Below are positions 2,147 to 18,004 of a DNA stretch of 64,000 nucleotides, piece after piece (within the stretch, counting starts at the first letter, position 1; each line of letters starts with the position of its first letter). The DNA is taken from assembly GCF_026015985.1 (NCBI RefSeq), contig NZ_CP110389.1, positions 5,240,001-5,304,000 of the forward strand. The letters run 5' to 3'. A program made the translations under genes and the position numbers. Source of the DNA: Rhodopseudomonas sp. P2A-2r. Its GTDB lineage: Bacteria > Pseudomonadota > Alphaproteobacteria > Rhizobiales > Xanthobacteraceae. Under the pieces are notes generated by a model. It had not been told where the DNA came from. It ran no database searches and was given only the letters and a program-made list of their open reading frames with translations.

Positions 2147-2714
2147 CTACTCCTGACGCATGTATTCGAAAGCCGGCGGCGCATCCGCCAACTTCGGCTG
2201 TTTCCGATCCTTTTCCGACAGAATGACCTCGGCGGCCGAAATCCGCCAATCGATGCCCAGTGCCGGGTCGTCCCAAGCGATGCCCCGGTCGCATTCCGGC
2301 GCGTAATAGTCAGTCACCTTGTAGATGACTTCGCAGTCATCCTCCAGCGTCAGATAACCGTGGGCGAAGCCCGGCGGCACCCAGAGCTGGCTCCAGTTGT
2401 CCGCCGACAGTTCCGCCGTCACGTGGCGGCCATAGCTGGGCGAGCCCACGCGGATATCCACCGCGACGTCGAGAATGGCGCCGCGGGTGCAGCGTACCAG
2501 CTTGCCTTGGGCATGCGGCGGCGTTTGAAAATGCAGGCCGCGCAGCACGCCTTTTTGCATCGAACGGACATGGTTGTCCTGCACGAACGGCCCGGTCAGG
2601 CCGTGCCCGGCGAACACGTCGGTGCGAAAGGTCTCTGAAAAAAGCCGCGGGCGTCGCCGTGCCTTTTGGCGTGGCCAGCCAGATATCGGGAATTTCGAGC
2701 TTTTCGATCAGCAT
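2147..2714 (-). CDS. rfbC: dTDP-4-dehydrorhamnose 3,5-epimerase, interrupted by two apparent one-base deletions
   Basis: RmlC epimerises C3 and C5 of dTDP-4-keto-6-deoxyglucose. The N-terminal frame starts at the ATG at 2714 (MLIEKLEIPDIWLATPK), a second frame supplies RHGDARGFF, and the main frame continues SETFRTDVFAGHGLTGPFVQ, then VLRGLHFQ and WVPPGFAHGY of the cupin core. Adding one base to the T4 run at 2663-2666 and one to the A6 run at 2638-2643 restores a normal 189-residue RmlC. Both sites are homopolymers, as in 11 other genes here, so I read this as sequence error rather than a pseudogene. As written, the longest intact frame lacks the first ~33 residues. It is the first gene of the rhamnose operon. 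Confidence 0.9.
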
Positions 2715-2896
2715 TCTTCGCTTCCCTGGGCCATCGGCCGGTTGGCCTAGATTTTGTGGAAACCATCGCCGCGCAGCGCTCTGAACCATCAGCCACCGGC
2801 TGCCACATAGCCTTACAAGCCTTTGTCGCGGTCAGTCAATTTGGCAAAGACGCGACACCTTTCAAGTTTCGCACGCCCAGTCCGCGCCGTCGTCCT
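2715..2896. promoter_or_regulatory. intergenic region upstream of rfbC
   Basis: No gene seen. This 182-base gap separates the start of the rhamnose operon (rfbC, reading left) from the stop of the last gene of the polyprenyl-sugar operon, also minus strand. A promoter for rfbC is expected here, but I see no convincing -35/-10 pair. Confidence 0.35.
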
Positions 2897-4420
2897 TCAA
2901 AGGAGCCGCCGCCCGGACAAGCCGGCCGCGAGGGCCAGTGCCATGCCCAGCCCGAGCACGACCGGAGCCAGGTTCATGATGGCCAGTTTGGTCCGCTCAA
3001 CGGCTGCATGCGATCGCCCGCGCAGCACCGTGCGCTCCAGCAGCGCTTTCTCATCGCTGTCCGCCGGGCGGATGGTCCGCGGCAACGCCATGCGGATCGT
3101 GGGATCGGACAGCAGCGAGGCCAAACGGTCAGCACTCGGATACGGGATCGCCAGCATGGTCTTGTTCTGCAGCGCGGCAATATCGCCGGTCCGCAGGTAG
3201 GCCGCGACATTGGCCTCCTGCTCCCGGCTCTGCGCGGCTTTCTCTATAACGTTCGGAAAGGTGGTCCGCGCCATGTCCAGCATGAGGCCGCCAAAGGTCA
3301 TCGCGAGCCAGCCCACTGTGACCAGAAAAACCACCCACTGTTTACCGATGGAGCGCACGCGCGCAGCGAAAAACAGCAAGATAGCGAAGTTTAGCGGCAT
3401 CGCCATGATCGTGATGTCGAGATAGCGCGACGAATTCGGCGCCACAGCGCGACCGTAGGACAGTGAAAGGATCTGCCCGAACCACCAGACGACAATACTG
3501 AGGATCACCCAGTGCTGCGAGGTCCGCGCCGGCCGCGCAGCCAAAACGAAACAAGCATAGGCAACCAACGGCACGTTCGTCAGGAGTGCGATCCATGAGC
3601 CGGCACGCGGATACTGCAGGCAAGCGAGCAATGCCGTCCACAGTTCGCGGATGTCATGGGCCTTCAGGCCGTCGTGACCGACGATGTGAGGAACATAGGC
3701 GATCATCACCGCAGACATCCCGAGCAAGATGGCGGCGCCGGCATATTCCTTGCTGCCCTGACGCACCCGCAGCAGCAACTGCAGCGCCACGATCGCCAGC
3801 GCCGCGGCACCGATGAGCGCGCCCGATGCCATCGAGAAGAAAGCCGCCGACGCGCAGGCAACGCCGAGCCACCAGCGGACGCTGAATGCGGCGGCGACGG
3901 CAAAGCCGGACAGCGCCAGAATAGAGAAAATCAGCAATAGATAGAACTGGCTCTGAAAACCGGCCAGCAGGTTTTCCCAGCCGATCGGCAGGACGAACAG
4001 CACTGCGGTGAACACCACCAAAGCGATCAACTGAGCAGGGCGAAGGATCCGCTGCAGCGCGAACACGACGAGAAGGATAGCCGCCACATGCAACGCGGCG
4101 TTGACCATCATCTGCAGGATCGGGTCCCAACCGCCGTCGAGTTCGAACAACGCCAGCGAGAGCACGCGCGTCAGAAAAATGCGATGCTCGTTGTGAGAGG
4201 CAAACAACGCCGACCACGAGAGGCTGGAGTTGAGATAGGCCTTGTACAGGCTATCGGCTTCCGCATCCCACTGATCCCAGTAAGGCAGCGCCGAACCGAA
4301 ATAACGGATAAACAGCATCTTCGCGCCAAACACGATCAGCGCGAGCGCGACAAGCGCCAGCGCCTTTTCGAACAATGCCTTCAACGCGGCATGCCTCGTC
4401 GCGACCGGCAGCGTATTCAT
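2897..4420 (-). CDS. polytopic membrane protein, GT-C-like, last gene of the polyprenyl-sugar operon
   Basis: A 507-residue protein with about 11-12 hydrophobic segments. After the first membrane span comes an acidic loop, ALPYWDQWDAEADSLY, then SHNEHRIFLTRV. An aspartate/glutamate motif in the first large extracytoplasmic loop is what GT-C glycosyltransferases use, so I suspect a sugar transferase that takes a polyprenyl-phosphate donor on the periplasmic side. That is inference from topology and neighbours; I do not recognise a named family. The C-terminus has one more span and a short basic tail (GRRLL). It follows the other large membrane protein by 61 bases. Confidence 0.6.
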   Translation of the reverse strand: MNTLPVATRHAALKALFEKALALVALALIVFGAKMLFIRYFGSALPYWDQWDAEADSLYKAYLNSSLSWSALFASHNEHRIFLTRVLSLALFELDGGWDPILQMMVNAALHVAAILLVVFALQRILRPAQLIALVVFTAVLFVLPIGWENLLAGFQSQFYLLLIFSILALSGFAVAAAFSVRWWLGVACASAAFFSMASGALIGAAALAIVALQLLLRVRQGSKEYAGAAILLGMSAVMIAYVPHIVGHDGLKAHDIRELWTALLACLQYPRAGSWIALLTNVPLVAYACFVLAARPARTSQHWVILSIVVWWFGQILSLSYGRAVAPNSSRYLDITIMAMPLNFAILLFFAARVRSIGKQWVVFLVTVGWLAMTFGGLMLDMARTTFPNVIEKAAQSREQEANVAAYLRTGDIAALQNKTMLAIPYPSADRLASLLSDPTIRMALPRTIRPADSDEKALLERTVLRGRSHAAVERTKLAIMNLAPVVLGLGMALALAAGLSGRRLL

Positions 4421-4481
4421 TGTATCTCCCAGAGACCGAAACTCGCGCGGTCAGCAGTTCGTCATAGCAAGACGCCGCTCG

Positions 4482-6479
4482 TCATCGAGCCGCATAGCCT
4501 TTCCCGAACGAAGCTTTCCAAGTCGCATTGCCCGGCGCGTTCAGGATATCCGTATCCACTTCAGCGAATGAAATCATCACCTTTGATCTGTATGCCCAGG
4601 ATTGCCGCCAGTTAGCGACAATCTCGAACGCCAGCGGGCGCGTACCGTCTTCAGCCGCCGCCCCCTCGTAAATCTGCAGAAACATGTTTGCGGACTTGAC
4701 CGTCGGAACGAGGATGACCCCATCCCGGGCCATGCCCGGAATCAACCTGTAATTTTCGGCCCGTCCGTCTTTATACAACGCACGCAGCACGATGGAAGGC
4801 GGCTTCAGGACCAGCTCGGCGAACCGACCCAGCGGGCTGTACTGCACGTCGATCCCGACAAATAGCGGCTTTGTCGACGTCGGAACATCGATCCACTCGC
4901 CAAGCGTTGCCTGGCGGACGATCGGTGCGCTCAGGAGATCCGGAAGTGGTTGCGATCGTCTGCGCAGCACAAGCAAATCGTGGCTGCTCCCGAACGGTTC
5001 GTAGCGCTGCAGCAACAGCGGCCATAGCGTACCCTCCGCGGAAGCGGGATGGCGGCCGTCGATCGATCCCGGCGCAAAATAGACGAACTCTGGTGCTTTT
5101 GGCGACAGATAGAAATCGCGGTTTCGCTGAATGAGCGATGGCGTATAGGTCGTGTATTCCTGGATCGTCGGCCGCGGCCGATAGTTGAGTTGCGCTGCGA
5201 TCACCTCGCTCTGCCGCGACGGGATGATGTCCACGCTGCCGCTCACCACCGGCAGCTTCGCGGAAGCATGCAACTGATCGCGGGCCGCCGCGAATTGCCG
5301 TTCCTTGTCGGCCATCCAGCCGCGCGGTCCGCTCGCAAAATCAACGACGCTCTCGAGGGTCGCGATCGAACGCCCGGCAATGGCGACAGGGTTAAGAACG
5401 TTCCACGGCATCTTCAGAACGTACGGCGCATAGAGATATAAAAAGCAGATGAACAGAAGCAATTCAAACGGACGATGCTTCGACTTAACAGGCTCGCTTG
5501 CCAATGCTACGGCCGGAATCGCCAGAAATAGCCCGGTCCACGAAATCAGTGAATGGGCGTCGTGACGAACGAAACCGGCTTTCGTCAAAAGAGAAAGATA
5601 GCCAATCAGCAGCAGCAGGTGCGCGACTGCCGTCGCGCGGGCTGGCCCGCGGACCTTTATGTTGGGCCAGGCCGCCACCGCAGCGACCACGACAACGGCG
5701 AAACTGGAGACACCCCACATCCAGATCGCATCCGGCGCGCCGTCGATGCTCATGCCGGCTGAATAACCTTGCGACACTTCAAGGGAGGCCTGCAAATAGG
5801 CGGGCAAGCCGGTCAGCGGCTGGCCAGCGGCCACAAAAAACGCAGCGGCGCAGATGAGAAACAATACGGTCTTGTAGGGAATCTTACGACGAGTCACGGA
5901 CAGCATGTCGATCAGCACGAACACCGGCAGGGCGAGCACCCCTACCGAGAACTTTGCCATGGCAAAGCCCGCGATGACCACGATCGACGCCACCATCAGC
6001 GGCAGGCTCGACCGGCGCGAGACGTACAGATAACCGGATGCGAACACGAAGAAGAGCATCAGGCCGTCGCGCAGCAGACGCTCCGCCATGAGAATTAGGC
6101 CGAACATAAACATCCCGGCCAGCACACGTCGTCCACCCACCTGAAACAGCGACGCCACAATCTTCCTTAACTGGATGGCGAAGATAACAAGCCAGAGGCA
6201 ATCCAGAGCGATAATCGCCGGAGCAATCCGATGCGGATATAGACGGTGATAGAAACTCGACAGGGGGCCGGAGGTAAAAACGATCTCCGAGCCAAAGGCG
6301 GCGCCCTTCTCGACAGCATTAGAAACTGCATAGATCCAGGAAGCATCCAGGCCGGCGCTCGGAAACCCGAAAGCCGCCGGCCGGATGCACGCAGCGGATA
6401 CCACGCCTATGACGAGCGTGAGTAGCAGTCCGCCCACAGATGATCCGAAATTCGAGAAACGATCGCGCCGCAAGGGCAT
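4482..6479 (-). CDS. large polytopic membrane protein with periplasmic C-terminal region, GT-C-like
   Basis: A 665-residue protein. I use the ATG at 6479 (MPLRRDRFSNFG), with AAGGAAAG about 7 bases upstream, although the frame stays open further. A first span (GGLLLTLVIGVVSAACI) is followed by a loop with LDASWIYAVSNAVEKGAAFG and IVFTSGPLSSFYHRLY. About ten more spans follow to residue ~370, then a ~290-residue soluble part. This layout fits GT-C transferases or related oligosaccharide enzymes, but I do not recognise the family and no reaction can be assigned. It lies 28 bases after the GtrA-like gene and before a second membrane protein in the same operon, so it is a good candidate user of the lipid-linked sugar made by the upstream genes. 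Confidence 0.6.
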   Translation of the reverse strand: MPLRRDRFSNFGSSVGGLLLTLVIGVVSAACIRPAAFGFPSAGLDASWIYAVSNAVEKGAAFGSEIVFTSGPLSSFYHRLYPHRIAPAIIALDCLWLVIFAIQLRKIVASLFQVGGRRVLAGMFMFGLILMAERLLRDGLMLFFVFASGYLYVSRRSSLPLMVASIVVIAGFAMAKFSVGVLALPVFVLIDMLSVTRRKIPYKTVLFLICAAAFFVAAGQPLTGLPAYLQASLEVSQGYSAGMSIDGAPDAIWMWGVSSFAVVVVAAVAAWPNIKVRGPARATAVAHLLLLIGYLSLLTKAGFVRHDAHSLISWTGLFLAIPAVALASEPVKSKHRPFELLLFICFLYLYAPYVLKMPWNVLNPVAIAGRSIATLESVVDFASGPRGWMADKERQFAAARDQLHASAKLPVVSGSVDIIPSRQSEVIAAQLNYRPRPTIQEYTTYTPSLIQRNRDFYLSPKAPEFVYFAPGSIDGRHPASAEGTLWPLLLQRYEPFGSSHDLLVLRRRSQPLPDLLSAPIVRQATLGEWIDVPTSTKPLFVGIDVQYSPLGRFAELVLKPPSIVLRALYKDGRAENYRLIPGMARDGVILVPTVKSANMFLQIYEGAAAEDGTRPLAFEIVANWRQSWAYRSKVMISFAEVDTDILNAPGNATWKASFGKGYAAR

Positions 6480-6507
6480 GGAACTTTCCTTGAAAGTGCA
6501 AAGCGAA

Positions 6508-6894
6508 CTATCGAAACGTAAACTTCTTGTGCCCGAAATAGCTCGTCGCGATCGGGCTGACAACGCCGACGACGTGGGCAATCAGGTCCTTCTGCCAGAC
6601 TATGCCGAGCCACGGCAACACCCACTCGGCGAGCCCGACGCTGACAATCCAGACCTGCGCGAGCGCGAAGAGATTGACCAGCACGAAGCGCATCGCTTCG
6701 CTTTGGAGCTGACGATCCGACCGTGCGAACACAAAGTGTCGCGTGAGACCGAACGCGACGGCCATCCCGATAAGATAGGCGATGACGACCGCGATCTCGA
6801 AACGGATGAACGAGGACAGCAGCCAGCGGGACAGAATGTTGACCGCCGCTGCGACGCCGCCGGCCAGCGCAAAGCGGATGAACTCGCGGTTCAC
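6508..6894 (-). CDS. GtrA-like four-span membrane protein
   Basis: GtrA-family proteins are small membrane proteins thought to move polyprenyl-phosphate sugars across the inner membrane or to assist their transfer. This one has 128 residues, starts MNREFIRFALAGGVAAAVN, has four hydrophobic segments, and ends with YFGHKKFTFR, a typical GtrA ending. The start is GTG at 6894, whose GTGA overlaps the stop of the FAD oxidoreductase gene, so translation is probably coupled. In mycobacteria a GtrA-like protein (Rv3789) lies next to dprE1/dprE2; finding one in this operon supports a flippase or accessory role for a polyprenyl-phospho-pentose. The role is inferred. Confidence 0.88.
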   Translation of the reverse strand: MNREFIRFALAGGVAAAVNILSRWLLSSFIRFEIAVVIAYLIGMAVAFGLTRHFVFARSDRQLQSEAMRFVLVNLFALAQVWIVSVGLAEWVLPWLGIVWQKDLIAHVVGVVSPIATSYFGHKKFTFR

Positions 6895-8204
6895 AAGCGC
6901 GCGCCTTGCGATGCCAATGCGGGCTCACCAGCCTGCTCGGCCATACGCCGCCCCAGCCGGATGCTTTCCGCGACGCCACGGTCTTCCGGGTAGTAATAGC
7001 AGGTATCGGCGATCTGCAGCCCGGCAATCGGCGTCTGCACGGGCGGCAGCTTGTCAGCGAAATGCGGCTCGCAGATCGGCTGGGCGTGTTTGAGACGGCC
7101 CACTTTGGCGTCCAGCAGATCGGCATCAGTGATCGCCGGATTGACGCGCTTGATGTAGCCGAACGCCTCGTCGATGAACTGCTGGTCGGTCCATTGCCAC
7201 TTCGGCTGGGTCACCGGCATGTAATACGGCACGTAGACGATGGTATCGCCGACGCGGCGCAGATTGGAGAACTCGATCAGGCCGGGAATCTCGATGTCGT
7301 CGGCGACGATGTTGAGCCAAAAATGCGGCGTCACGGATTTGCGCAGCTTGAACAGCAGGCAGACCACGCCGATGTTCTTGATATCGGCGTACTTGTCCTG
7401 CCAGTCCTGCGGCAGGTCCGGCACCAGGCGATTGACCAGCGGCACAGGTACGGTGGAGATCACCGCGTCGGCTGCGAACTCGCGGCCGCCGGCGCGCACA
7501 GCGATGACGCGGCCGTCCTGTACGATGACCTGTTCGGCCGGTGTGCCCAAATGGATGCGCCCGCCCTTGCGGCGGATGTCATCGGCGATGGCTTCGACCA
7601 GCGTCTCCGAGCCGCCGTCGATATAGCCGAGTTGTTCCTGGAAGATCGACTTTCGCGAGTTGCCGATGCGCTTAATGCGCGTCGCGATCCACGACGCCGC
7701 GACCTCGTCGGCATATTCGTAGAACTTCAGTTCCTGCAGCCGCTTCCACAACTTGTTATAGACCGACACGCCGGAGCCGCCCTCGATCCATTTTCGCGAG
7801 GTCAGGTGCTCGATGCGATCGAAGTTCTTCGACTTGGTGGTCAGGAACATCTGCAGCCCGGTCTTGATCTTCTCCATCAAAGTGAGGTGCGGGTAGGTCA
7901 GCAGCGAGATGGGATCGCCCCATTTGTGCACGCGGCCATGGGTGTAATACGCCATCGACGTATTCACCCAGCGCATGCGGTCGCCAATGCCGAGGTCCTT
8001 CATCAGCGCGAAGGTCGGCGCATCCGACTTGCAGACGAAGTGGTAGAAGCGCTCGATCGAGACGCCGGAAAAATCGATATGCGCGGCCATGCCGCCGGCC
8101 TTGGTGTCGGCCTCGATCAGGTCGACCTCGTGGCCCAGGGTCACCGCGCGCTGCGCGGCGGCGAGGCCCATGGGGCCTGCTCCCAACACAACGATGCGGC
8201 TCAT
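6891..8204 (-). CDS. FAD-dependent oxidoreductase (amine oxidase / protoporphyrinogen oxidase-like fold)
   Basis: A 437-residue flavoprotein beginning MSRIVVLGAGPMGLAAAQRA, the FAD-binding GxGxxG, with an acidic residue ending the second strand (VDLIEAD) and the GGMA segment. Mid-protein are GYIDGGSETLVEAIADDI and a second strand AADAVISTVPVPLV. The C-terminal FAD-contact region reads LQIADTCYYYPEDRGVAESI. The fold is that of monoamine oxidase, protoporphyrinogen oxidase and UDP-galactopyranose mutase relatives; the substrate cannot be read from sequence. It overlaps the GtrA gene and lies 10 bases after the epimerase-like gene, so a role on a sugar or polyprenyl-sugar is plausible but unproven. 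Confidence 0.85.
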   Translation of the reverse strand: MSRIVVLGAGPMGLAAAQRAVTLGHEVDLIEADTKAGGMAAHIDFSGVSIERFYHFVCKSDAPTFALMKDLGIGDRMRWVNTSMAYYTHGRVHKWGDPISLLTYPHLTLMEKIKTGLQMFLTTKSKNFDRIEHLTSRKWIEGGSGVSVYNKLWKRLQELKFYEYADEVAASWIATRIKRIGNSRKSIFQEQLGYIDGGSETLVEAIADDIRRKGGRIHLGTPAEQVIVQDGRVIAVRAGGREFAADAVISTVPVPLVNRLVPDLPQDWQDKYADIKNIGVVCLLFKLRKSVTPHFWLNIVADDIEIPGLIEFSNLRRVGDTIVYVPYYMPVTQPKWQWTDQQFIDEAFGYIKRVNPAITDADLLDAKVGRLKHAQPICEPHFADKLPPVQTPIAGLQIADTCYYYPEDRGVAESIRLGRRMAEQAGEPALASQGARL

Positions 8205-8214
8205 GGCAAAACTC

Positions 8215-9143
8215 CTAGAAAGACAGGATGATCTTCGAATGGTCGGGATGCAGATAGGTCTCGCTCAGCGCCTGGCGCAAAGGCGTCGAGGCGACGCCGA
8301 ACTCGCCGGGCCAGTCGATCACTGGAAATGTCTCCGGAATCACCAGCGCTTCGAGCTGCCCGGTGGTGAACGGCGGCTTCTTGTCGATGAGGGCATAGAC
8401 CCACAGCAGCGCCCAGAACAGCGCATAGGGAATATGCACGATTTTCGCGCGCGGCTTGACGATGTCGTGAATCATGCCGATCAGGCCGCCGTAGGAAATT
8501 TTTCGAGGCCGGAGATGTCGAAGGTGCCGGTCTTGCGCTGCTCGATGGACGCCACGATGATCGAGACGAGATCGCCGACATACAGCGGCTGCCGCGTGAA
8601 ATTGCCGTCGGCGGGAATGGGAAACACAGGCGCCTTTTCCATGAAGCGACGCAGCCAGCCGAGGTGCTTGCGATCGAACCAGCCGAACATCAGCGTCGGC
8701 CGCAGCGTCACGTGCGAGATGGTGCAGGCGTCGAACAGTTTTTCCTGCGTCGTCTTGGTACGCGTGTAGAAATCATCGGCCGAGGAATTGACCACCGACG
8801 ACGAGATTCCCACCACGTAGGGCACGGCATCCGCGTGTGCCGCAGCCAGAATATGCTCGGTGGCGGTGACGTTGTTGGCAACGAACTCGTCGAGGAACAA
8901 GCCACCGATCTGCGCCTGGTTGACGACCACCGTATCGGCGCCGGCAAAACACTCCGCCCAGGCACCCGGCACCGCGAGATCCGCCTCGATCATCGTCACG
9001 TCGGGATGCGCCTGGCGGAACAGCGCGACGTTGGCCGCGTGCTTGTCGATGCCAACCAGTTCGAAATCCGGCCGCGCCTTCAGCCGCGCCACCAGGTTCT
9101 GCCCGACCAGGCCCGCGGCCCCGGTGATGACGATCTTTCGCAT
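8215..9143 (-). CDS. NAD-dependent epimerase/dehydratase-like protein, one apparent base deletion
   Basis: An extended short-chain dehydrogenase. It begins MRKIVITGAAGLVGQNLVAR (GxxGxxG) and has the catalytic SSSVVNSS and YTRTK (YxxxK) signature plus the LRPTLMFGW and QPLYVGDLV segments seen in sugar epimerases. The frame stops at 8481 after ISGLEKF, but one extra base in the T5 run at 8499-8503 joins it to the remaining ~90 residues (YGGLIGMIHDIVKP to the end at 8215), giving 309 residues. I treat the break as sequence error. It starts 3 bases after the DprE2-like gene and ends 10 bases before the FAD oxidoreductase, inside one operon. The substrate is unknown; a sugar or polyprenyl-linked sugar is likely from context. 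Confidence 0.83.
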
Positions 9144-9146
9144 GAC

Positions 9147-9899
9147 CTAGAAATTCATCTTGTTGAAGATGGCGGCCGGAATGTTGCGGATGATCGCCAT
9201 GATCAGCCACCAGCGGCCGGGCGCATAGACCACCGGGCCGCCGCTGTCGGCGGCCTTGCGCACCACCGCGGCGACCGCCTCGGGCGTCGCCCACATCGGG
9301 CCGCCCTTGGCCATGCCCGCGGTCATGGCGGTATCGGTCGGGCCGGGCTTGACGATGACGACGCGGGGGCCGACGCTGCGGAAGCGGTGGCTGATGCCCT
9401 GCACCAGCACGGCGAGGCCGGCCTTGGCGGCGCCATAGACATAGTTGGAGCGCCGGCCGCGGTCGCCCGCCACAGAGCCCAGCACCACCAGCGAGCCCCT
9501 GCCCTGCACTTCCAAGAGGTTGGCGACGGCCAGCATCCAGGCGGCAGCGGAGCGGAAATTGACGTCGATGATGGCCAGCGCGGCAGCCGCGTCGCGGTCG
9601 GCGAGCGCCTGATCGCCAAGCACGCCATAGGCCAGTAGGACGTGGTCCAGCCCGCCCAGTTTCGCGACCATGCCGGCCAGCGTGGCGGCGGCGTCGGGGT
9701 CGGTGAAGTCGATGTCGAAAATCTCGGTGGCGGCAGCCCCGCGCGCCGTTAGGTCGGCGGCGATAGCGGTCAGCCGTTCGGCGTTCCGGCCGGCAAGCCC
9801 GATCATCGCGCCCTCGGCAGCGTACAATCGCGCAGTCGCCTGAGCAATGCCGGAACCGGCACCCAGGATCAGTACACGGAGCGGATTTGGCGTCATCAT
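9147..9899 (-). CDS. DprE2-like short-chain dehydrogenase (decaprenylphosphoryl-2-keto-ribose reductase family)
   Basis: In mycobacteria DprE2 reduces the 2-keto intermediate made by DprE1, completing epimerisation of polyprenyl-phospho-ribose to arabinose. This 250-residue protein has LILGAGSGIAQATARLYA (NADP-binding), a catalytic Ser in SVAGDRGRRSN, YGAAK (YxxxK) and KPGPTDTAM. It ends RNIPAAIFNKMNF, closely matching the unusual DprE2 tail (RHIPRSIFRKL, from memory). The ATG at 9899 overlaps the stop of the DprE1-like gene (ATGA), as expected for partners. Family placement is confident; the exact sugar is inferred. Confidence 0.88.
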   Translation of the reverse strand: MMTPNPLRVLILGAGSGIAQATARLYAAEGAMIGLAGRNAERLTAIAADLTARGAAATEIFDIDFTDPDAAATLAGMVAKLGGLDHVLLAYGVLGDQALADRDAAAALAIIDVNFRSAAAWMLAVANLLEVQGRGSLVVLGSVAGDRGRRSNYVYGAAKAGLAVLVQGISHRFRSVGPRVVIVKPGPTDTAMTAGMAKGGPMWATPEAVAAVVRKAADSGGPVVYAPGRWWLIMAIIRNIPAAIFNKMNF

Positions 9900-11224
9900 G
9901 GGGTCATCCGCCGCCAGAATGTCGATGACATCCCGGGGTCCAAGTGCGTTGTGAATTGGTCCAGCGCCGGATAGCCAGCCCTGAACATCGCTGGCGGCAA
10001 ACGACCGTCCTTGGCCGGGTAAAGACGGCCACCGGCTTGTCGGACAATCGCGTCGAGTCTGTCAAGCAGCCACAGGGTCGGCCCACCTTTATTGGCAAAA
10101 TCCAGCGCCAGGGTGGTGCCCTGCCGGGGGAACGACAGCAGGCCGGGCGACGCGACGTCGCCGAAGGTCTTCAACACAGCGAGAAAGGAGCCCTGCCCGG
10201 CGTCGGCGATGGTCCGCAACATCTCCGCCGTGGCGTCAGCAGCAACCGATGGCGGCACCACGCTCTGGTACTGGTAAAAGCCGCGTGAGCCATACAGCCG
10301 GTTCCAGCCACCGATGGCGTCGAGCGGGTAGAAGAACGGGTCGTAGGACACGGTGGCCTGCCGGGCGCGGCCGGCGAGACGGAAATAGACCTCGTTGAAA
10401 GCCGCAATTGACAGCCGGTTGAGCAGGAAGCCCGGGGCGTCGATGGGCACGCTGGGGCCGCCGGGCGGCTTAACGCGGAGCTCGCCGTCGCTGGCATGGC
10501 GGGCCCGGGTGAAGATGCCGCGGCCGAGCTTGTCGCCCTGGGCCAGGCAGTCGATCCACGCCACGGTGTAATCGTGGCTGGCGTCGCTTTCCCCAGACAG
10601 GGCGAAGAATTCGCCGAGGTTGCCAAACGGGACGGTCTCCACGGCCATGTTCGAACTGGCAATCGGCGCCAGTTGCAGTGTCGCGCGGGTCATAACTCCG
10701 GTAAGGCCGAGACCGCCCACCGTGGCTGCAAACAGGCCGGTGGCATCGTCATCGGCGACGAAGCACGCGCTGCCGTCGCTGCGCAGCAGGCTCACGCTGC
10801 GGATCCAGCGCCCGAACGAGCCGGCGCGATGGTGGTTCTTGCCGTGCACGTCGTTGGCGATGGCACCACCCAAGGTAACAAATTTGGTGCCGGGGGTGAC
10901 CGGCAGGAAAAAGCCGGCAGGAATAGCCAGCTTCAGGATCGCCGACAGACTGACCCCGGCCTCGGCTTCGAGCAGGCCAGTGGTGCGGTCGAAGCGGACG
11001 AAACGGTCAAGCCCGGTCATCTCGACCAGGGCGCCGCCGTCGTTGATGCAACTGTCGCCGTAAGAACGTCGCAAGCCACCGGCAAGCACGCCGTGAGGCA
11101 GTTCGGCACCCTGCCGCATCAGCGGCGGAAGTTCGTCGGGAAAAGCCGGTTGCGCGACGCGCATCGGCGTCCGCGGGGTTCGCCCCCACGAAACAAGGTC
11201 GGTGCGCGTGATGAAGCCGCTCAC
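9896..11224 (-). CDS. DprE1-like FAD-dependent oxidase (decaprenylphosphoryl-ribose 2-oxidase family)
   Basis: DprE1 oxidises the 2'-hydroxyl of polyprenyl-phospho-ribose. The 442-residue protein matches it along its length: VSWGRT near residue 12, RRSYGDS for FAD, PVTPGTKFVTLGGAIANDVHGKNHH at about 108-132, then GSFG, TVGGLGLTG, FFYPLDAIGGWNR and GGRLYPAKD with the conserved Lys (about residue 405). The residue equivalent to mycobacterial Cys387, the covalent benzothiazinone target, appears to be Ala373 (TLALDF). The start is GTG at 11224, whose GTGA overlaps the UbiA stop; the next in-frame start would remove the SWGRT motif. No damage seen. Confidence 0.9.
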   Translation of the reverse strand: MSGFITRTDLVSWGRTPRTPMRVAQPAFPDELPPLMRQGAELPHGVLAGGLRRSYGDSCINDGGALVEMTGLDRFVRFDRTTGLLEAEAGVSLSAILKLAIPAGFFLPVTPGTKFVTLGGAIANDVHGKNHHRAGSFGRWIRSVSLLRSDGSACFVADDDATGLFAATVGGLGLTGVMTRATLQLAPIASSNMAVETVPFGNLGEFFALSGESDASHDYTVAWIDCLAQGDKLGRGIFTRARHASDGELRVKPPGGPSVPIDAPGFLLNRLSIAAFNEVYFRLAGRARQATVSYDPFFYPLDAIGGWNRLYGSRGFYQYQSVVPPSVAADATAEMLRTIADAGQGSFLAVLKTFGDVASPGLLSFPRQGTTLALDFANKGGPTLWLLDRLDAIVRQAGGRLYPAKDGRLPPAMFRAGYPALDQFTTHLDPGMSSTFWRRMTP

Positions 11225-12651
11225 AGCGCCAACAGGATGGCGACGGCAACGAAAATGCCGAGACCGAGACTGACATTGTCGCGCAGCGCAAAAGCAACCG
11301 GATCGTCGGTCATGCGGCCACGGTGCGACAATACCCAGATGCGGCAACTGAACAGGAAGATCGCGATCGGCGTCACCCAGAGCCACGCCGGGGTGTGATA
11401 GATCTGGCGCGCGAACACCTCCTCGACGAGATAGAGCACGACAATGACGATCGAGGCCATGGAAGCCGCACTGCCGAACGCCAGCGTCAGGCTCTCGTCG
11501 CCGGCCTGGTAGCCGCGGCCTTCCAGCTTCTGCAGGCCATGTTCTGCAGCGCGCAAGATCTCGGTGTGGCGCTTGGCCAGCGCAAGCGAGAAGAAGAAGA
11601 ACATCGAAAACGTCAGCAGCCAGGCCGAAGGCACGAGATCCGCGGCGGCAATGCCGATCAGGATGCGGATGGTGAACAACAGCGCGATGACGAAGGTGTC
11701 GAACAGCGGTATCCTTTTCCACCCGAACGAATAGCCCAGCGTCACGGCCACATAGAACAGGAGGCAAAGCCCCGCCGCGGGGGCGACCAGCAGCGCGGCG
11801 ATACAGGCCAGTGGCAGGATCGTGCCGACCACCATCAGGCCGTCGCGCACCGGGATCGCCCCTGACGCAAGGCCGCGGCGGCGCTTCGACCAATGCTTGC
11901 GGTCCGAGGCGAGGTCCGCCATGTCGTTGACGAGATAGGTCAGCGACGCGACCAGGCAGAGCAGCACGATCATCACGAGGGTTTGCAGCAATTCCTCCGG
12001 CGTGACGTCGCGCCAGCCCAGCGCCACCGGCACCAGCACGATCATGTTCTTGGCCCATTGGTGCGGGCGCAGCGCCTTCAGCCAGGCCGCGTGGCCATGA
12101 GGCTTATCGCCGAACGCGCGCTCGACCGGGGTTCCGCCGGCTTCGACGGCATCGATCAGCCACCGGCTCGACGACACCACCACGGCGGCTTTTGCACTGC
12201 GCCAGACCGGCAGATCAGCGGTGCTGTCGCCGGCATAAACGAAACCGCCGGGAAACTGTTGCAACAGCCGGTCGGCCTTGTTCTGCCCCTTCAGGTTGAC
12301 GTCGCCGTCGGTGCCGTGCACGGACTTGAACAGCGGAAACCGGCTGGCTACCCGGCGGGCTATGATCTGGTCGGCCGCGGTCGCGAGATGAACCTCGCGG
12401 CCCGACTGGGTTTCCTCCTCGAGGTAGGCGAGCAGTTCCTCGCGGACGGGAAAACTGTCAATATCGGGTTGCGCGACGCGCGTCAGCCGCTGCTTGAAGG
12501 CGGAAATACCGTGCCGCAGCTCCAGCAACGCGAACAGGATGCGAAAGGGGCTGGCAAACAGTCCGGCGGCAAACGTCTCGAAAAGACTGTCGACCTTGAG
12601 GAAAGTGCCGTCGAGATCGACGATCAGCGGCAATTTTCGTGTCTCGGTCAT
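11221..12651 (-). CDS. HAD phosphatase - UbiA prenyltransferase fusion (phosphoribosyl-polyprenyl synthase-like)
   Basis: A 476-residue two-domain protein. Residues ~8-200 are a HAD phosphatase: VDLDGTF with nucleophile Asp12 and Asp14, then YAGDSTADLPVW as the acidic motif. Residues ~205-476 are a UbiA-type membrane prenyltransferase: KALRPHQWAKN, the metal-binding NDMADLASDRKH (NDxxDxxxD), and SFGWKRIPLFDTF, with about nine spans. In mycobacteria a UbiA enzyme (Rv3806c) joins phosphoribosyl pyrophosphate to decaprenyl phosphate and a phosphatase removes the 5-phosphate; fusing both steps here fits the DprE1/DprE2 genes downstream. Rhizobial NoeC, linked to arabinosylated Nod factors, is also UbiA-like. 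It is the first gene of the operon, with ATG at 12651. Confidence 0.88.
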   Translation of the reverse strand: MTETRKLPLIVDLDGTFLKVDSLFETFAAGLFASPFRILFALLELRHGISAFKQRLTRVAQPDIDSFPVREELLAYLEEETQSGREVHLATAADQIIARRVASRFPLFKSVHGTDGDVNLKGQNKADRLLQQFPGGFVYAGDSTADLPVWRSAKAAVVVSSSRWLIDAVEAGGTPVERAFGDKPHGHAAWLKALRPHQWAKNMIVLVPVALGWRDVTPEELLQTLVMIVLLCLVASLTYLVNDMADLASDRKHWSKRRRGLASGAIPVRDGLMVVGTILPLACIAALLVAPAAGLCLLFYVAVTLGYSFGWKRIPLFDTFVIALLFTIRILIGIAAADLVPSAWLLTFSMFFFFSLALAKRHTEILRAAEHGLQKLEGRGYQAGDESLTLAFGSAASMASIVIVVLYLVEEVFARQIYHTPAWLWVTPIAIFLFSCRIWVLSHRGRMTDDPVAFALRDNVSLGLGIFVAVAILLAL

Positions 12652-12989
12652 CGCTCAATTGCACTCATTAGCTAGTACGTCTGGCAAAGAGCTAGTACGT
12701 CTGGCAAAGCGTGAGACACGTGGCAACTTTGGAATTTCCAGGAAAACCGACGAAGTCATCCGAAAATCGTCGCCATTACGCCTTAAATCGGTGTACGTGC
12801 AAAAGAGGCCCAGTGCAAACGTTCAACTGTCCCGCCGATGTCGCGGCAGCATCCGTGAACGAGACCAAGGCCACGCGCGGAAATAATCCTGTACAGAAGT
12901 AACCCCTTCGGACAAATTGGTTTTACCTTGTCACCTCTGAGGAAAACATTTGGTGGCGCGAATTTCCATCTCGATGAAGCAAGTAGTTG
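12652..12989. promoter_or_regulatory. divergent intergenic region between the UbiA-fusion operon and the glycosyltransferase gene
   Basis: A 338-base gap without a supportable gene. It must carry the promoter of the eight-gene minus-strand operon and probably that of the plus-strand glycosyltransferase. The only clear structure is a tandem 20-bp duplication next to the UbiA start. Short open frames here have no coding character. Confidence 0.4.
12670..12709. repeat. perfect tandem duplication of a 20-bp unit
   Basis: The unit AGCTAGTACGTCTGGCAAAG occurs twice in immediate succession (12670-12689 and 12690-12709), 19 bases upstream of the UbiA-fusion start. Two identical copies could be a duplicated regulator site or recent slippage. 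Confidence 0.9.
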
Positions 12990-15143
12990 ATGACAACCGA
13001 TCCAGTTTTGGTGACCACGCGCGCAATGAACGAGGCCGGCTACCGGCATGATGCCGGCCGTACGGACGCGCAGTACCACAGTAACGACTACCGGGGCAAT
13101 GTCCGCAACGTGGCAGATGCGTACGATAGCGATCAAAAAGCGATCGAAAACCTGCAGCGGGAATTGATGGAAGCCGAGGCAACAATCGCGCGGCTGCAGG
13201 AAGAAATCGACGCCATCACCCGATCGCCCGCTTGGCGAACGGCCCATTTGCTGCAATCCCTGACGGATAGGCTTCCACCAAACGTTCAACGGGTGTTATT
13301 TCGCATCGCCCAGTCCAGCTTTCGCATGGTGCGCTATCGGATACCCGCGCAAATCCGGGCTATTGCGGGACCCCGGCTGCTTGCAGTTCTCGGGCCGGCA
13401 GGTGCGGGGCATGTCGACCACATCGGCCAACATTACGGCCAGTGGGTCGAAGATTTCGATACGCTGACTGCGATCGACCGTGCAGAGATCGTTGCCCACA
13501 TGGCCGCGTTTCAAACGACGCCGCTGATCTCGGTGGTCGTGCCGGTGTACGAAACCCCGGAGCCGATCCTTCGCGCGACGATCGAAAGCGTGATCGCGCA
13601 AATCTATCCGCATTGGGAATTATGTCTCGCGGATGACGCCTCGAAGGCGCCTCATGTCCGGAAAGTGCTGGAGGCCTACAGCCAGCAGGACAGTCGCATC
13701 AAATGCGCCTATCGCCCTGCCAACGGCCACATCTCCGCGGCAAGCAATTCCGCGCTGGCGCTGGCGACCGGCGAGTACATAGCCCTCCTCGACCACGACG
13801 ACGTGCTTTCTGAGCACGCTCTTTACATGATCGCGGAAGCGATACAGCGACACCCGAATGCCGAGGTCTTTTATTCGGACGAAGACAAGCTGGATGCCCG
13901 CGGCAAAAGATGCGATCCACATTTCAAGCCCGACTGGAGTCCCGAACTGTTCTACGGGCAGAACTACCTCAACCACCTGACCGCCTATAAACGTGCCGCT
14001 GTGGAACGAGCCGGCGGCTTTCGCGAAGGATTTGAAGGCAGCCAAGACTACGATCTGGCACTCCGGGTGATCTCCGCGACCCAGGCGCAGATCGTTCATA
14101 TCCCCTACATTCTCTATCACTGGCGCATCTTCGAAGGGGCCGGAACCATGTCGTCCACAAACCTTCGCAAGGCGACGGCCACCGCGCGGCAGGCGCTCAC
14201 CGAGTATTTTTCAGGCTTCGGCACGAAGGTCACCGTCAAGGACGTGTTGGGAAGCTTCCACCGTATCGTCCGGCCGGACCCGCAGCTATGGCCGAGGGTC
14301 TCGGTGATCGTGCCAACGCGCGATTATCTCGATGTGTTGCGCGTGGCCATCGACGGCCTTGAACACCAGACCGACTATCCCGACCTCGAGATCATCATTG
14401 CCGACAACGAAAGCACCCAGCCTGAGACGTTGGCGTATCTTTCCGCCGTGCAGGCACGGGGCATACGGGTCGTCGCGTGCCACGGCGCATTTAACTATTC
14501 CGATATCAACAACAAGGCAGCTGCATTCTCCACGGGAGAACTGGTGCTGCTTCTAAACAACGACATCTCGATGATCGATGCCGGATGGCTCAAGGAGATG
14601 GTCCGGTATTTTTCCGATCCGGAAATCGGCATCGTCGGACCCAAGCTGCTCTACCCGGACGGAACGTTGCAGCACGCCGGTGTCGTGCTGGGGATCGGAG
14701 GTGTGGCCGGTCATCGCTACGCCAGGACAGCCGGTGACGAATCCGGCAGCTTTGGACGATTGGCCCTCGCGCAGGACGTAAGTGCCGTAACTGGCGCCTG
14801 CCTTCTTATTCGCCGGGCACTGTTTCAGAAGCTGGGCGGCCTCGACGCGGTTAACCTGGCGGTCGCGTTCAACGATATCGATCTCTGTATGAGGGTGCGG
14901 GCGGCGGGCTATCGTATCATCTGGACGCCCTATGCGGTTCTTGCACATCACGAGTCCAAATCGCGCGGCCTCGATATCAGCGGCGAAAAACAGGAACGCT
15001 TCCAGCTTGAGTCGCGATTCATGCGTCGCAAATGGGGTAATCGGCTGATCTACGACCGGTTTTACAATCCCAACCTGTCGCTGAAGTCCATCACGCCCGC
15101 ACTTGCGCGCCCACCACGCTTGCGCAAGCCCTGGAAGGCCTGA
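12990..15143 (+). CDS. two-domain family 2 glycosyltransferase
   Basis: A 717-residue protein. Residues ~50-75 form a short coiled coil (LQRELMEAEATIARLQEEID). A first GT-A/GT2 domain starts near residue 180 (ISVVVPVYETPEP) with the metal-binding acidic motif LDHDDVLS and an EDKLDARG segment. A second starts near 435 (VSVIVPTRDYLDVL) with LLNNDISMID and AFNDIDLCMRVRAAGY. Tandem GT2 proteins of this kind build repeating surface polysaccharides in the cytoplasm. A TTG lies just before the ATG at 12990, which I prefer; the ribosome site is weak. The ABC exporter downstream suggests it makes the exported polymer. Confidence 0.88.
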   Translation: MTTDPVLVTTRAMNEAGYRHDAGRTDAQYHSNDYRGNVRNVADAYDSDQKAIENLQRELMEAEATIARLQEEIDAITRSPAWRTAHLLQSLTDRLPPNVQRVLFRIAQSSFRMVRYRIPAQIRAIAGPRLLAVLGPAGAGHVDHIGQHYGQWVEDFDTLTAIDRAEIVAHMAAFQTTPLISVVVPVYETPEPILRATIESVIAQIYPHWELCLADDASKAPHVRKVLEAYSQQDSRIKCAYRPANGHISAASNSALALATGEYIALLDHDDVLSEHALYMIAEAIQRHPNAEVFYSDEDKLDARGKRCDPHFKPDWSPELFYGQNYLNHLTAYKRAAVERAGGFREGFEGSQDYDLALRVISATQAQIVHIPYILYHWRIFEGAGTMSSTNLRKATATARQALTEYFSGFGTKVTVKDVLGSFHRIVRPDPQLWPRVSVIVPTRDYLDVLRVAIDGLEHQTDYPDLEIIIADNESTQPETLAYLSAVQARGIRVVACHGAFNYSDINNKAAAFSTGELVLLLNNDISMIDAGWLKEMVRYFSDPEIGIVGPKLLYPDGTLQHAGVVLGIGGVAGHRYARTAGDESGSFGRLALAQDVSAVTGACLLIRRALFQKLGGLDAVNLAVAFNDIDLCMRVRAAGYRIIWTPYAVLAHHESKSRGLDISGEKQERFQLESRFMRRKWGNRLIYDRFYNPNLSLKSITPALARPPRLRKPWKA

Positions 15144-15281: not shown

Positions 15282-16208
15282 GTGTTCCTTTGCTCGAATT
15301 CAAGCACTGTGAACGAAGCCGCGATCGCTGCGGCGGTTATACGTCAATCTTCAGATCGGCCACCGTTGAAAACCAGCCTCGACAGCAACTTTTTCGATCA
15401 GACCAACGCACGCGAACCGCGGAGCGCTGCGGCGGTCGCGTGGGCCGATGCGATCGAGGGTTTTTCGCTGTGGCGGCTGTGGGTTACCCTGGGATGGAAC
15501 GACATCCTACAGCGCTACCGGCGCTCGATCCTTGGACCGTTCTGGCTCACGGCGAGCATGGCGATCATGGTGATAGCGCTCGGCGTGCTTTACGCCGAAC
15601 TGTTCAAAATGCAGATCCGCGAGTTCTTGCCGTTCCTCTGCGTTGGCCTGCTGGTGTGGAATCTGCTGTCGGGATTTTTGGGGGAAGCCGGAGCGCTATT
15701 TACCGGCTCGGAATCATACATAAAGCAGATTCGGCTGCCATATTCGGTCTATGTCTACCGCTCGACTTGGAGCAAGTTCGTCATCTTCGCGCATAACTTT
15801 GTGATCTATTTCGGCGTGCTGCTGTACTTCCAGTTCTGGCCTGGCGCGGTGATGCTGCTGGCGATCCCCGGCATTATCCTGGTGCTGATCAACGGTGCAC
15901 TGGCCAACCTGTGCATCGGCATCATCTCCGCGCGGTTCCGCGACGTGCCGCAGGTGGTGACCTCGGTGGTGCAGATCGTGTTCTTCGTCACGCCGATCTT
16001 CTGGAAGCCGGAGCTGCTACAAAGGCGCGCCTATCTTGCCGATCTCAACCCATTCTACCATCTCATCGAGATCGTCCGCGCACCGCTGCTGGGCCAGATT
16101 CCGACGGGCAAACATTATCTCGCCGTGCTGCTGATCACGCTGGTCAATCTGGTTGTCGCCAGCGTGTTCTTTACGCGTTTCCGCGCCCGCATCGCCTACT
16201 GGGTCTGA
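15282..16208 (+). CDS. wzm: polysaccharide ABC exporter, membrane subunit (Wzm-like)
   Basis: A 308-residue ABC-2 type permease with six predicted spans, containing YRRSILGPFWLTASMAIM, the hallmark of Wzm/KpsM polysaccharide exporters, and NPFYHLIEIVRAPLLG near the C-terminus. With the ATPase beginning 2 bases later it would carry undecaprenyl-linked polysaccharide across the inner membrane. The start is uncertain: GTG at 15282 gives an N-terminal tail of ~65 residues before the conserved part, and GTG at 15309 is an alternative. Confidence 0.88.
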   Translation: MFLCSNSSTVNEAAIAAAVIRQSSDRPPLKTSLDSNFFDQTNAREPRSAAAVAWADAIEGFSLWRLWVTLGWNDILQRYRRSILGPFWLTASMAIMVIALGVLYAELFKMQIREFLPFLCVGLLVWNLLSGFLGEAGALFTGSESYIKQIRLPYSVYVYRSTWSKFVIFAHNFVIYFGVLLYFQFWPGAVMLLAIPGIILVLINGALANLCIGIISARFRDVPQVVTSVVQIVFFVTPIFWKPELLQRRAYLADLNPFYHLIEIVRAPLLGQIPTGKHYLAVLLITLVNLVVASVFFTRFRARIAYWV

Positions 16209-16210
16209 TC

Positions 16211-16996
16211 ATGAACGCGCCCTTGTCCGTTTCCATCCGGAATGCCGAGCTGACGCTTCGCAACGTCAACGTCTCCTTCCCCATCTATCACGGCGGCTCC
16301 CGCTCGCTGAAGAAGAGCCTGCTGTTCCGCGGATCCGGCGGCCACATGGCGGCGGACGCCAGCCACCGCATCATCGTGCAGGCCCTGCGCGACGTCTCGC
16401 TGCAGTTCGTCGCCGGCGACCGCGTCGCGCTGATCGGCTCCAATGGCGCCGGCAAGACGACCCTGCTGCGCGTGATGGCTGGCGTCTACGAGCCCGTCAC
16501 CGGCACCGTGGAAAGTCGCGGCCGGATTTCGCCGATGTTCGATATCGGCCTCGGCATCGACAACGAGATCAGCGGCTACGACAACATCCGCCTGCGCGGC
16601 ATGATCCTCGGCCTGTCGCGCGACGAGATCGAGGAACGGATGGCGGATATCGCCGAGTTCACCGCGCTCGGCGACTATCTCGACGTTCCCGTGCGCACCT
16701 ATTCGTCGGGCATGATGACGCGGCTGACCTTTGCGGTGGCAACCTGCTTCGCGCCGGAAATCCTGTTGATGGATGAATGGATCATGGCCGGCGACGCCAG
16801 CTTCCTGACGAAGGCGCAGCATCGCGTACAATCCTTCGTGGAAAAGGCCAGCATCATGGTGCTGGCGTCGCACAGCATCGAGACCTGCCGCAAATTCTGT
16901 AACCAGGGCATCTGGATGGACCAGGGCCAGATCAGGGCGTCCGGCCCGATTGACCAAGTGCTCGACGCCTACTCTGCCGAAGCGGGCGTGGCTTAA
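16211..16996 (+). CDS. wzt: polysaccharide ABC exporter, ATP-binding subunit (Wzt-like)
   Basis: A 261-residue ATPase with Walker A GSNGAGKTTLL, signature YSSGMMTRLTFA and Walker B EILLMDEWI, plus SHSIETCRKFC at the switch histidine. The N-terminus (VNVSFPIYHGGSRSLKK) is that of the Wzt/KpsT/TagH group, with its insertion before the Walker A. It lacks the long C-terminal carbohydrate-binding domain of O8/O9a-type Wzt, so export is probably not gated by recognition of a capped chain end. I chose the ATG at 16211, directly after the permease stop. Confidence 0.93.
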   Translation: MNAPLSVSIRNAELTLRNVNVSFPIYHGGSRSLKKSLLFRGSGGHMAADASHRIIVQALRDVSLQFVAGDRVALIGSNGAGKTTLLRVMAGVYEPVTGTVESRGRISPMFDIGLGIDNEISGYDNIRLRGMILGLSRDEIEERMADIAEFTALGDYLDVPVRTYSSGMMTRLTFAVATCFAPEILLMDEWIMAGDASFLTKAQHRVQSFVEKASIMVLASHSIETCRKFCNQGIWMDQGQIRASGPIDQVLDAYSAEAGVA

Positions 16997-17014: not shown

Positions 17015-18004
17015 ATGGATCGCCTCAGGGACGTCGTTCGCGCAGGGCGTCGGCTGTACCTGCCGGTCCAGGATTGGGCGATTGGCCTGTTCGGCACATT
17101 CGCCCGGCGCGGCAGCTACGTTCGCGAACGGATCGAAGGCGACGATCCGCTTCGCGACGCACCACGGGCGGCCGTTTACGTGCACTTTGACAAAGTCGGT
17201 ATCGTGCACGATTACGTCGTGCATCAACTATGCGAACTGGTCGGCGCCGGTTACCGGATCACCTTCGTCTCCAACGCCCCCGATCTTCCCGCCGAAAGCC
17301 GCACGCGCGTGCAGCCCCTCTGCAAGGAGCTGATCTGGCGCTTCAATACCGGCTACGACTTCGGCGCCTACAAGGACGGCATCGCGTCCATCGCGGGTCT
17401 CGACCAGTTAGACAGCCTAATCCTGATGAACGACAGCGTCTACGGGCCGTTCTGGAATCTGCGTGACACGCTGGCAAAGATCGACGTCGCGACGACGGAT
17501 TTCTGGGGCATCGCCGACAGCTTCGAGAACCGCTATCATATCCAGACGTTCTTCATGGTGTTCATGCCAAACGCGCTGCGGTCGACAGCCTTCAAGGATT
17601 TCTGGAGCCGCCTGCTTTATATCGATCACCGGATGTGGGTAATTCGCAACGCCGAGGTCAGGCTGACGCAGGTCCTGCAGGAAGCGCAGCTCAGGACCGG
17701 CGTGCTCGCGCCTTACGGCGCTGTCGCGGCGACAGCCAGGGAACGGCTGGCGCGCCAGACGCCTCCAGAATTCAAGCGCGCCGCCTTCGAGCGGTTTTGT
17801 GCGCACGTCATGAAGGACGGCGTCGTCAATCCCACGCAATTTTTCTGGGACGTGCTGATCACCGACTACGCCTGCCCGTTCATCAAGCGCGACCTGCTGA
17901 CCTCGAACCCGAACAACGTGCCGGGTACCTCGCGCTGGCCAGAGATCATCGCCGCGCACAGCAGCTACGACGTTGGCATGATTGCGCGCCACCTGCAGCG
18001 GTGA
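17015..18004 (+). CDS. rhamnan synthesis F (RgpF)-family protein
   Basis: A 329-residue protein with the pattern of the RgpF/rhamnan synthesis F family: AAVYVHFDKVGIVHDYVVHQL, ITFVSNAP, FNTGYDFGAYKDGI and LILMNDSVYGPF. In streptococci RgpF acts in rhamnose-glucose polysaccharide assembly. It follows the ABC exporter by 18 bases, and the dTDP-rhamnose genes are in the same window, so a rhamnose-containing chain is likely. No membrane segments; probably cytoplasmic or peripheral. The exact transferase activity is not certain. Confidence 0.85.
   Translation: MDRLRDVVRAGRRLYLPVQDWAIGLFGTFARRGSYVRERIEGDDPLRDAPRAAVYVHFDKVGIVHDYVVHQLCELVGAGYRITFVSNAPDLPAESRTRVQPLCKELIWRFNTGYDFGAYKDGIASIAGLDQLDSLILMNDSVYGPFWNLRDTLAKIDVATTDFWGIADSFENRYHIQTFFMVFMPNALRSTAFKDFWSRLLYIDHRMWVIRNAEVRLTQVLQEAQLRTGVLAPYGAVAATARERLARQTPPEFKRAAFERFCAHVMKDGVVNPTQFFWDVLITDYACPFIKRDLLTSNPNNVPGTSRWPEIIAAHSSYDVGMIARHLQR

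Follow-up and report, generated by a model that had tools for sequence, protein, structure and literature searches.

The window analysed here, 64,000 nucleotides of the Rhodopseudomonas sp. P2A-2r genome (contig NZ_CP110389.1, positions 5,240,001 to 5,304,000), carries an operon of eight genes, all on the minus strand and extending from position 12651 down to 2897, which, judging by sequence, probably serves to build a pentofuranose on polyprenyl phosphate and to attach it, in the periplasm, to a surface polysaccharide, with the flavoprotein encoded by gene 5 acting further on the lipid-linked sugar. The likely pathway would begin with the gene 1 product, predicted to transfer a phosphoribosyl group to polyprenyl phosphate and then to remove the phosphate; the products of genes 2 and 3 would invert C2 by oxidation followed by reduction, giving polyprenyl-P-D-arabinofuranose, and a further step on the lipid-linked sugar would be the work of gene 5, joined in most relatives by the short-chain dehydrogenase/reductase (SDR) gene 4. 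The GtrA protein of gene 6 would flip the product, and the GT-C enzyme of gene 8, perhaps along with that of gene 7, would transfer the sugar. The core of the pathway is supported, since its enzymes are homologous to solved mycobacterial ones and retain catalytic motifs, the gene 8 product is modelled with a GT-C fold, and the genes are linked in relatives. An earlier note on the window had proposed such a mycobacterial-type route, complete in one operon of a Gram-negative bacterium. The order and strand of the eight genes were borne out and the core of the route stands, while gene 4 proved to be broken and only one of the two supposed GT-C enzymes found support. Homology, motifs and linkage likewise favour a whole arabinose-type route in a Gram-negative, for which there are published precedents (PMC11127046).

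The core enzymes and the membrane proteins

Gene 1 (11221..12651, minus strand, 476 aa) codes for a fusion of a PRP-like HAD phosphatase with a PPPRS-like UbiA-type polyprenyl-phosphate phosphoribosyltransferase. Its product matches the mycobacterial decaprenyl-phosphate phosphoribosyltransferase 8j8j in the PDB (E=1.1e-22) and scores 539.9 bits against the NCBIfam UbiA/HAD fusion model NF006088 (PRK08238), above the curated cut-off of 351. It has the motifs DLDGT, NDMADLASD, and KRHTE, of which the latter two agree with the residues of loops II and IV that were tested in Citrobacter ORF15 (PMC11127046). Gene 2 (9896..11224, minus strand, 442 aa) encodes a DprE1-like FAD oxidase with the motifs GKNHH and AKD, matching mycobacterial DprE1 (4aut, E=3e-83). 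Gene 3 (9147..9899, minus strand, 250 aa) encodes a DprE2-like SDR reductase with the motif YGAAK, and the best of its 357 PDB matches is mycobacterial DprE2 (21gq chain C, E=3.5e-34). Genes 1 and 2 share a four-base GTGA overlap at 11224-11221, comprising the start of gene 2 and the stop of gene 1, and genes 2 and 3 an ATGA overlap at 9899-9896, as stated in the earlier note; another four-base overlap joins genes 5 and 6 (6894-6891). The Pfam domains of genes 1 to 6, i.e., HAD and UbiA, FAD_binding_4, adh_short, Epimerase, Amino_oxidase, and GtrA_DPMS_TM, agree with the functions that had been assigned to the fusion protein, the oxidase, the reductase, the FAD oxidoreductase, and the GtrA-like protein. 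A crude gene picker based on base composition picked genes 1 and 5-8 and favoured opposite-strand frames over genes 2-4; the latter are nevertheless accepted on the minus strand, because homology decides where such a picker disagrees. No sigma-70-like promoter was found by a scan of positions 2500-13100, and terminators showed no excess over expectation in the operon scan.

DprE1 homologues (E <= 1e-30, the window's own genome being included in the counts) are present in 6 of the 18 genomes of the genus and in 60 of the 397 genomes of the order, and regions of 12-20 kb were fetched from 5 genus and 55 order genomes. The relatives' loci are of three types: T1, with DprE1 and DprE2 and mostly with gene 1; T2, the type found in the window, with gene 5 nearby; and T3, in which DprE1 is accompanied by a class III aminotransferase while DprE2 is lacking. 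The 117 loci with a long unbroken DprE1 comprise 62 T2, 33 T1, 19 T3, and 3 unplaced ones, numbers that should not be read as frequencies, since gene 5 served to gather many of the loci. By pattern counts in T2-type loci, NDxxDxxxD and K[RK]xxE occur in 56/56 gene-1 homologues, GKNHH-like and AKD motifs each in 57/61 DprE1 proteins, and YxxxK in 61/61 DprE2 proteins; a glycine pattern for DprE2 fitted neither gene 3 of the window nor any relative. The mycobacterial DprE1 differs from the gene 2 product at the site which we take to be Cys387 in the protein of Mycobacterium tuberculosis, aligned with Ala in the alignment to 4aut. Ala is found at this position in 57 of the 63 T2 rows (Ser in 2, with 4 unread) and in 22 of the 33 T1 rows (Thr in 1, with 10 unread).

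The candidate flippase is the GtrA-type small membrane protein of gene 6 (6508..6894, minus strand, 128 aa), which scores 61.8 bits against Pfam GtrA_DPMS_TM (cut-off 26.1) and 23.3 bits against NCBIfam gtrA_1, under the cut-off of 50. Gene 8 (2897..4420, minus strand, 507 aa) encodes a GT-C-fold membrane glycosyltransferase. It gave no Pfam family match; its model has a GT-C fold, with AftB, AftA, and EmbC among the fold matches, which supports its assignment as a GT-C transferase, and the invariant D49, located just past the model helix 6-41, is the putative catalytic residue. GT-C enzymes have been described as polytopic, with an extracytoplasmic part after helix 1 (PMC11127046). Gene 7 (4482..6479, minus strand, ca. 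665 aa) codes for a large membrane protein whose role as a transferase we only infer. It had no match in Pfam, NCBIfam, or the PDB, and a profile comparison with the gene-8 family revealed no relation (hhalign, 5.8%), so of the two GT-C-like proteins postulated in the earlier note only that of gene 8 is substantiated. The gene 7 product has an invariant Asp in the motif LDxSW, and its homologues lie near the same module in relatives. Both genes 7 and 8 differ from locus to locus.

Association of gene 5 with DprE1

Gene 5 (6891..8204, minus strand, 437 aa) encodes a PRK07233-type flavoprotein of the phytoene desaturase/protoporphyrinogen oxidase/UDP-galactopyranose mutase fold, 93-94% identical to four proteins named Tardiphaga, on which basis the strain is placed in that genus; nothing useful on lipopolysaccharide sugars of Tardiphaga was found among the literature matches listed. 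Among solved structures, phytoene desaturase and protoporphyrinogen oxidase are the closest to it, and the fold search also gave a match to the UDP-galactopyranose mutase fold. The emphasis placed earlier on the extra redox enzymes was apt, genes 4 and 5 being the unexplained part of the set.

The tie of gene 5 to DprE1 is strong. In the 397 genomes of the order gene 5 has 20 matches at 1e-40, 13 of them with at least 56% identity and the other 7 with 25-33%. All 13 genomes with a close homologue have DprE1 (compared with 60/397 overall), adjacent in 12 and 36 kb away in one; the chance of such a result under a random draw is 6e-12, a value which ignores kinship and an identity line set afterwards. 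A scan of named genomes with a gene-5 profile gave 387 relatives, and among the best 80, kept as named loci, DprE1 is in reach in 52 and gene 4 in 67; where both 10-kb flanks are available (42 loci), the respective values are 35 and 38. The genomes of the 28 loci without DprE1 in reach, together with that of one locus with a cut-short DprE1, have DprE1 in 27 cases out of 28 (20/20 and 7/8), four of these 27 matches spanning only part of the query. All seven plasmid records with gene 5 also carry DprE1, ca. 3 kb away, while DprE1 is present in 62 plasmid records. On a tree of 118 DprE1 proteins (quick method, SH-aLRT only) the T2 label requires four changes, all forced by starred branches, against a mean of 39.5 for shuffled labels; with at least four changes, gene 5 occurs with distinct DprE1 lineages. 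Distant gene-5 relatives adjoin GT2 genes in seven cases out of seven (six by BLAST, the seventh by Pfam).

Some gene-5 loci stand apart. Two distant relatives of gene 5 (L226 and L228) lie beside LPG_synthase_TM proteins, another possible type of flippase. The matches in L120 (record named Streptomyces sp. AcH 505) and L122, 82% and 72%, respectively, to an alphaproteobacterial protein, are probably on contaminating contigs. In Granulicella sp. L46 (L184:5149-12292) homologues of genes 5 and 4 have two large membrane proteins and a GT2-GtrA fusion as neighbours, and DprE1-DprE2 is carried by a different contig.

Gene 4 and the possible reactions of gene 5

Gene 4 (8215..9143, minus strand) has the Epimerase domain expected of an extended-SDR epimerase or reductase, as previously noted, but it does not form one intact frame: 220 codons are read from 9143 to a stop at 8481, and the conserved C-terminal part, containing a hydrophobic stretch, resumes in another frame to 8215. 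The motifs GAAGLVG and YTRTK are present. The frame is lost near 8,490-8,500, where a few A residues follow one another, and an error of sequencing could account for this. In relatives the two parts are in one frame in all 81 fetched loci holding both, 80 of them without an early stop; in L190 the gene has 209 codons and lies on a 3.3-kb contig starting inside it, and in the nearest relative (genome G007, locus L037; DprE1 86% identical) gene 4 is intact. In the PDB, the gene 4 product of a relative is matched best by NDUFA9-type SDRs, and its comparison with the SDR of an aminotransferase locus gave no significant similarity. In the 13 genomes whose gene 5 lacks an adjacent gene 4, a gene 4 was found elsewhere in three and is absent (E 1e-30) from ten, so the two genes are not an obligate pair and the reading of them as a strict pair was dropped. 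Gene 4 is a usual but dispensable companion, and gene 5 the constant partner of DprE1. Since gene 5 occurs without any gene 4 in ten relatives, it may remain functional in the window strain despite the broken gene 4.

Tentatively, gene 5, usually with gene 4, would convert polyprenyl-P-arabinofuranose to another lipid-linked pentose, the two products forming a second flavin/SDR redox pair alongside DprE1/DprE2, or gene 5 acting alone where gene 4 is missing. L-xylose is a component of some Xanthomonas O-antigens. As a product of genes 4 and 5 it was considered and dropped, since neither a literature search nor passages of PMC4878081 supported it. A second redox pair of this kind may, for example, perform C3 inversion to lyxofuranose, a sugar reported to be absent from all solved carbohydrate structures (PMC11127046).

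A real, if unlikely, possibility is a plain arabinose pathway, with polyprenyl-P-D-arabinofuranose as the only product and genes 4 and 5 serving the lipid carrier, e.g., by a redox change of the polyprenyl chain. The nearest structural relatives of gene 5 are indeed enzymes of hydrophobic substrates, and the NDUFA9-type matches of gene 4, its break in the window and its loss in ten of the 13 genomes also fit, as do the T1 loci, 22 of 33 of which are located in genomes of the order sample that have no close homologue of gene 5 (of the other 11, four are in genomes not searched for gene 5 and seven, L053, L217, L218, L219, L221, L222, and L224, in genomes with gene 5 elsewhere). However, a carrier-modifying enzyme need not track DprE1, yet gene 5 does so in 27 of the 28 genomes and on all seven plasmids, and the GT2 genes near its distant relatives are as expected for sugar-lipid enzymes, while still compatible with a carrier role. 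Rather less probable is a ring isomerase, gene 5 acting on polyprenyl-P-sugars in the manner of UDP-galactopyranose mutase to turn the pentofuranose donor into a pyranose, on which gene 4, where present, would then act. The absence of gene 4 from ten of the 13 genomes slightly lowered our confidence in conversion to a further pentose and somewhat raised that in the ring isomerase. That the operon is decaying, the break in gene 4 marking functional loss of the whole set in the window strain, is improbable: each of the remaining seven genes is an open reading frame, genes 1, 2, 3, and 5 keep the motifs sought, save for the glycine pattern that fitted no relative either, and a break at a run of A could have arisen in sequencing. 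Nod-factor arabinosylation as in Azorhizobium, where noeC, noeH, and noeO have been proposed as a D-arabinose precursor pathway (PMC2443382), is scarcely credible for an operon placed between rhamnose and ABC exporter genes and a module found, whole or in parts, in sphingomonads, Acidobacteria, and on a Burkholderia plasmid.

Several findings weigh against the preferred reading, in which a lipid-linked pentofuranose is made, processed further by gene 5, and added to a surface polysaccharide. Besides the break in gene 4 and its absence from most genomes that lack it next to gene 5, the flavoprotein fold of gene 5 does not reveal its reaction. DprE1 was not found in one of the 28 genomes (L122, record named Nostoc favosum), though the contig there has DprE2 on it and appears to be contamination. 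Three of 19 acidobacterial loci (L167, L184, and L193) have a DPMS-type GT2 within range of their detached gene 5, so that gene 5 might act there on another lipid-linked sugar. The HAD motif DxDGT was matched in only 36 of the 56 gene-1 homologues, a pattern count in which cut alignment ends and variants are not separated. The gene 2 product scores 395.4 bits against the NCBIfam DprE1 model (NF053785, curated cut-off 500) and the gene 3 product 193.3 bits against that of DprE2 (NF053786, cut-off 250); with scores below the cut-offs, they are not members of these curated equivalogs, but homologues of DprE1 and DprE2 that probably act alike. Finally, the acceptor is assigned from gene neighbourhood only.

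Neighbourhood, locus types, and related systems

The flanking genes, as classified by Pfam, appear to form a cluster for a rhamnose-containing, ABC-exported surface polysaccharide, which is the most likely acceptor. On one side of the operon lie the dTDP-rhamnose genes RmlD (199-1104), an RmlB-like dehydratase (1094-2143), and RmlC (2147-2698), all on the minus strand, and on the other a two-domain GT2 (12987-15143), an ABC exporter pair (15282-16996), and an RgpF-like protein (17015-18004) on the plus strand, followed by a GT2 (18027-18956) on the minus strand; the location among surface polysaccharide genes pointed out in the earlier note is thus correct. Farther away, ARAGORN called a tRNA-Leu (anticodon aag) at 32927-33016, within the open reading frame 32561-33484, which is probably a false call.

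Conservation extends to six of the eight genes, whose order in the window recurs in 32 of the 80 named loci, in 9 of the 55 order-sample loci, and in L037; the eight are not conserved as one unit, genes 7 and 8 being variable. The six-gene order is also found on plasmids, the conjugative, 110-kb pDG3-1a of Agrobacterium salinitolerans and a plasmid of Burkholderia stagnalis, and the named hosts of the intact module include Rhodopseudomonas, Phyllobacterium, and Rhizobium species, among them the culturable Rhodopseudomonas rhenobacensis and Phyllobacterium myrsinacearum. In the sphingomonad loci L142, L149, and L161, gene 4, gene 5, and GtrA precede gene 1, DprE1, and DprE2, and in Acidobacteria gene 5 is detached, often accompanied by gene 4. 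Four genus mates of the window strain (L038-L041) have a T1 set whose DprE1 is only 43-46% identical to that of the window, so the genus holds two unlike loci. A methyltransferase-like gene lies between gene 5 and GtrA in five of nine loci (L117, at 11346-12002, L118, L119, L125, and L147; Pfam was run on L117 only), and a class I methyltransferase is annotated immediately upstream of gene 1 in L233 and L234; these hosts may O-methylate the sugar. The T3 type is represented by L065 (4972-9231) and 18 further loci, all with the class III aminotransferase by definition. By clustering, with domains checked for L065 and partly for L066, 14 of the 19 have an ArnF/EamA-like open reading frame and 14 an SDR. 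Their DprE1 has AKD in only 1/19 and Thr at the Cys387-like position in 16/19. The gene content suggests that T3 loci make a lipid-linked aminopentose by transamination of the DprE1 ketone.

The closest described systems are those of Citrobacter youngae O1/O2, for which Kelly et al. reported in 2024 three-component extracytoplasmic pentofuranosylation by PRP-PPPRS, a MATE flippase, and a GT-C enzyme of family GT136 (PMC11127046). An SDR, ORF13, converts Ribf to Xylf there, and DprE1/E2 homologues have been assigned to Araf-containing glycans. Shared with the window are the HAD phosphatase at the N-terminus of a UbiA-type PPPRS with the same residue motifs, a GT-C enzyme in an ABC-exporter polysaccharide cluster, and, as in the Araf systems, DprE1/E2 homologues. 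The differences are that the flippase candidate, comparing the operon only, is GtrA here and MATE there, that a conserved extra flavoprotein is present here, usually with an SDR, and that the GT-C of gene 8, recognised by its fold, has no Pfam family. The mycobacterial decaprenylphosphoryl-arabinose pathway (Rv3806c, Rv3807c, DprE1, DprE2, Rv3789, and Emb/Aft) likewise comprises a transferase, an oxidase, and a reductase homologous to those of the operon, a putative flippase that is a small membrane protein, and the GT-C fold; in the window, unlike in mycobacteria, a HAD-type phosphatase domain is fused to the transferase, and everything is encoded in one operon beside surface polysaccharide genes, with extra redox enzymes. 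Two further systems can be compared by description only. On the strength of resemblance to proteins of mycobacteria, the Azorhizobium set noeCHOP has been proposed to supply a D-arabinose precursor (PMC2443382); the operon differs from it in its surface polysaccharide context and the additional genes 4-8. In the arabinosylation of Pseudomonas type IV pilin (TfpW) a PPPRS ortholog has been proposed to provide lipid-linked arabinofuranose in Gram-negatives (cited in PMC11127046), the acceptor there being pilin.

The main idea of the pathway is thus already known from mycobacterial arabinan, from noeCHO, and from what Kelly et al. described for pentofuranoses, and is met here in a new locus. Two elements were not found described in the titles and abstract starts of the best 10-20 matches of each literature search: a role for gene 5 or gene 4 in the DprE1/DprE2 route, and a DprE1-aminotransferase locus. 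What appears to be new, on this basis, is that gene 5, usually accompanied by gene 4, is tied to the route, and that an aminotransferase type of locus exists.

With this module, mycobacterial arabinose chemistry is met in a six-gene set that many bacteria associated with plants and soil carry, sometimes on a plasmid, and strong co-occurrence ties to the arabinose route a family of flavoproteins to which no reaction has been assigned. The end sugar can be tested directly in the named hosts that have the module intact, and for the sister type with an aminotransferase a lipid-linked aminopentose is predicted. If gene 5 does lead to a further pentose, DprE1 loci would constitute a toolkit yielding arabinose with DprE2, a further epimer or isomer with DprE2 and gene 5, and an aminopentose where a class III aminotransferase replaces DprE2.

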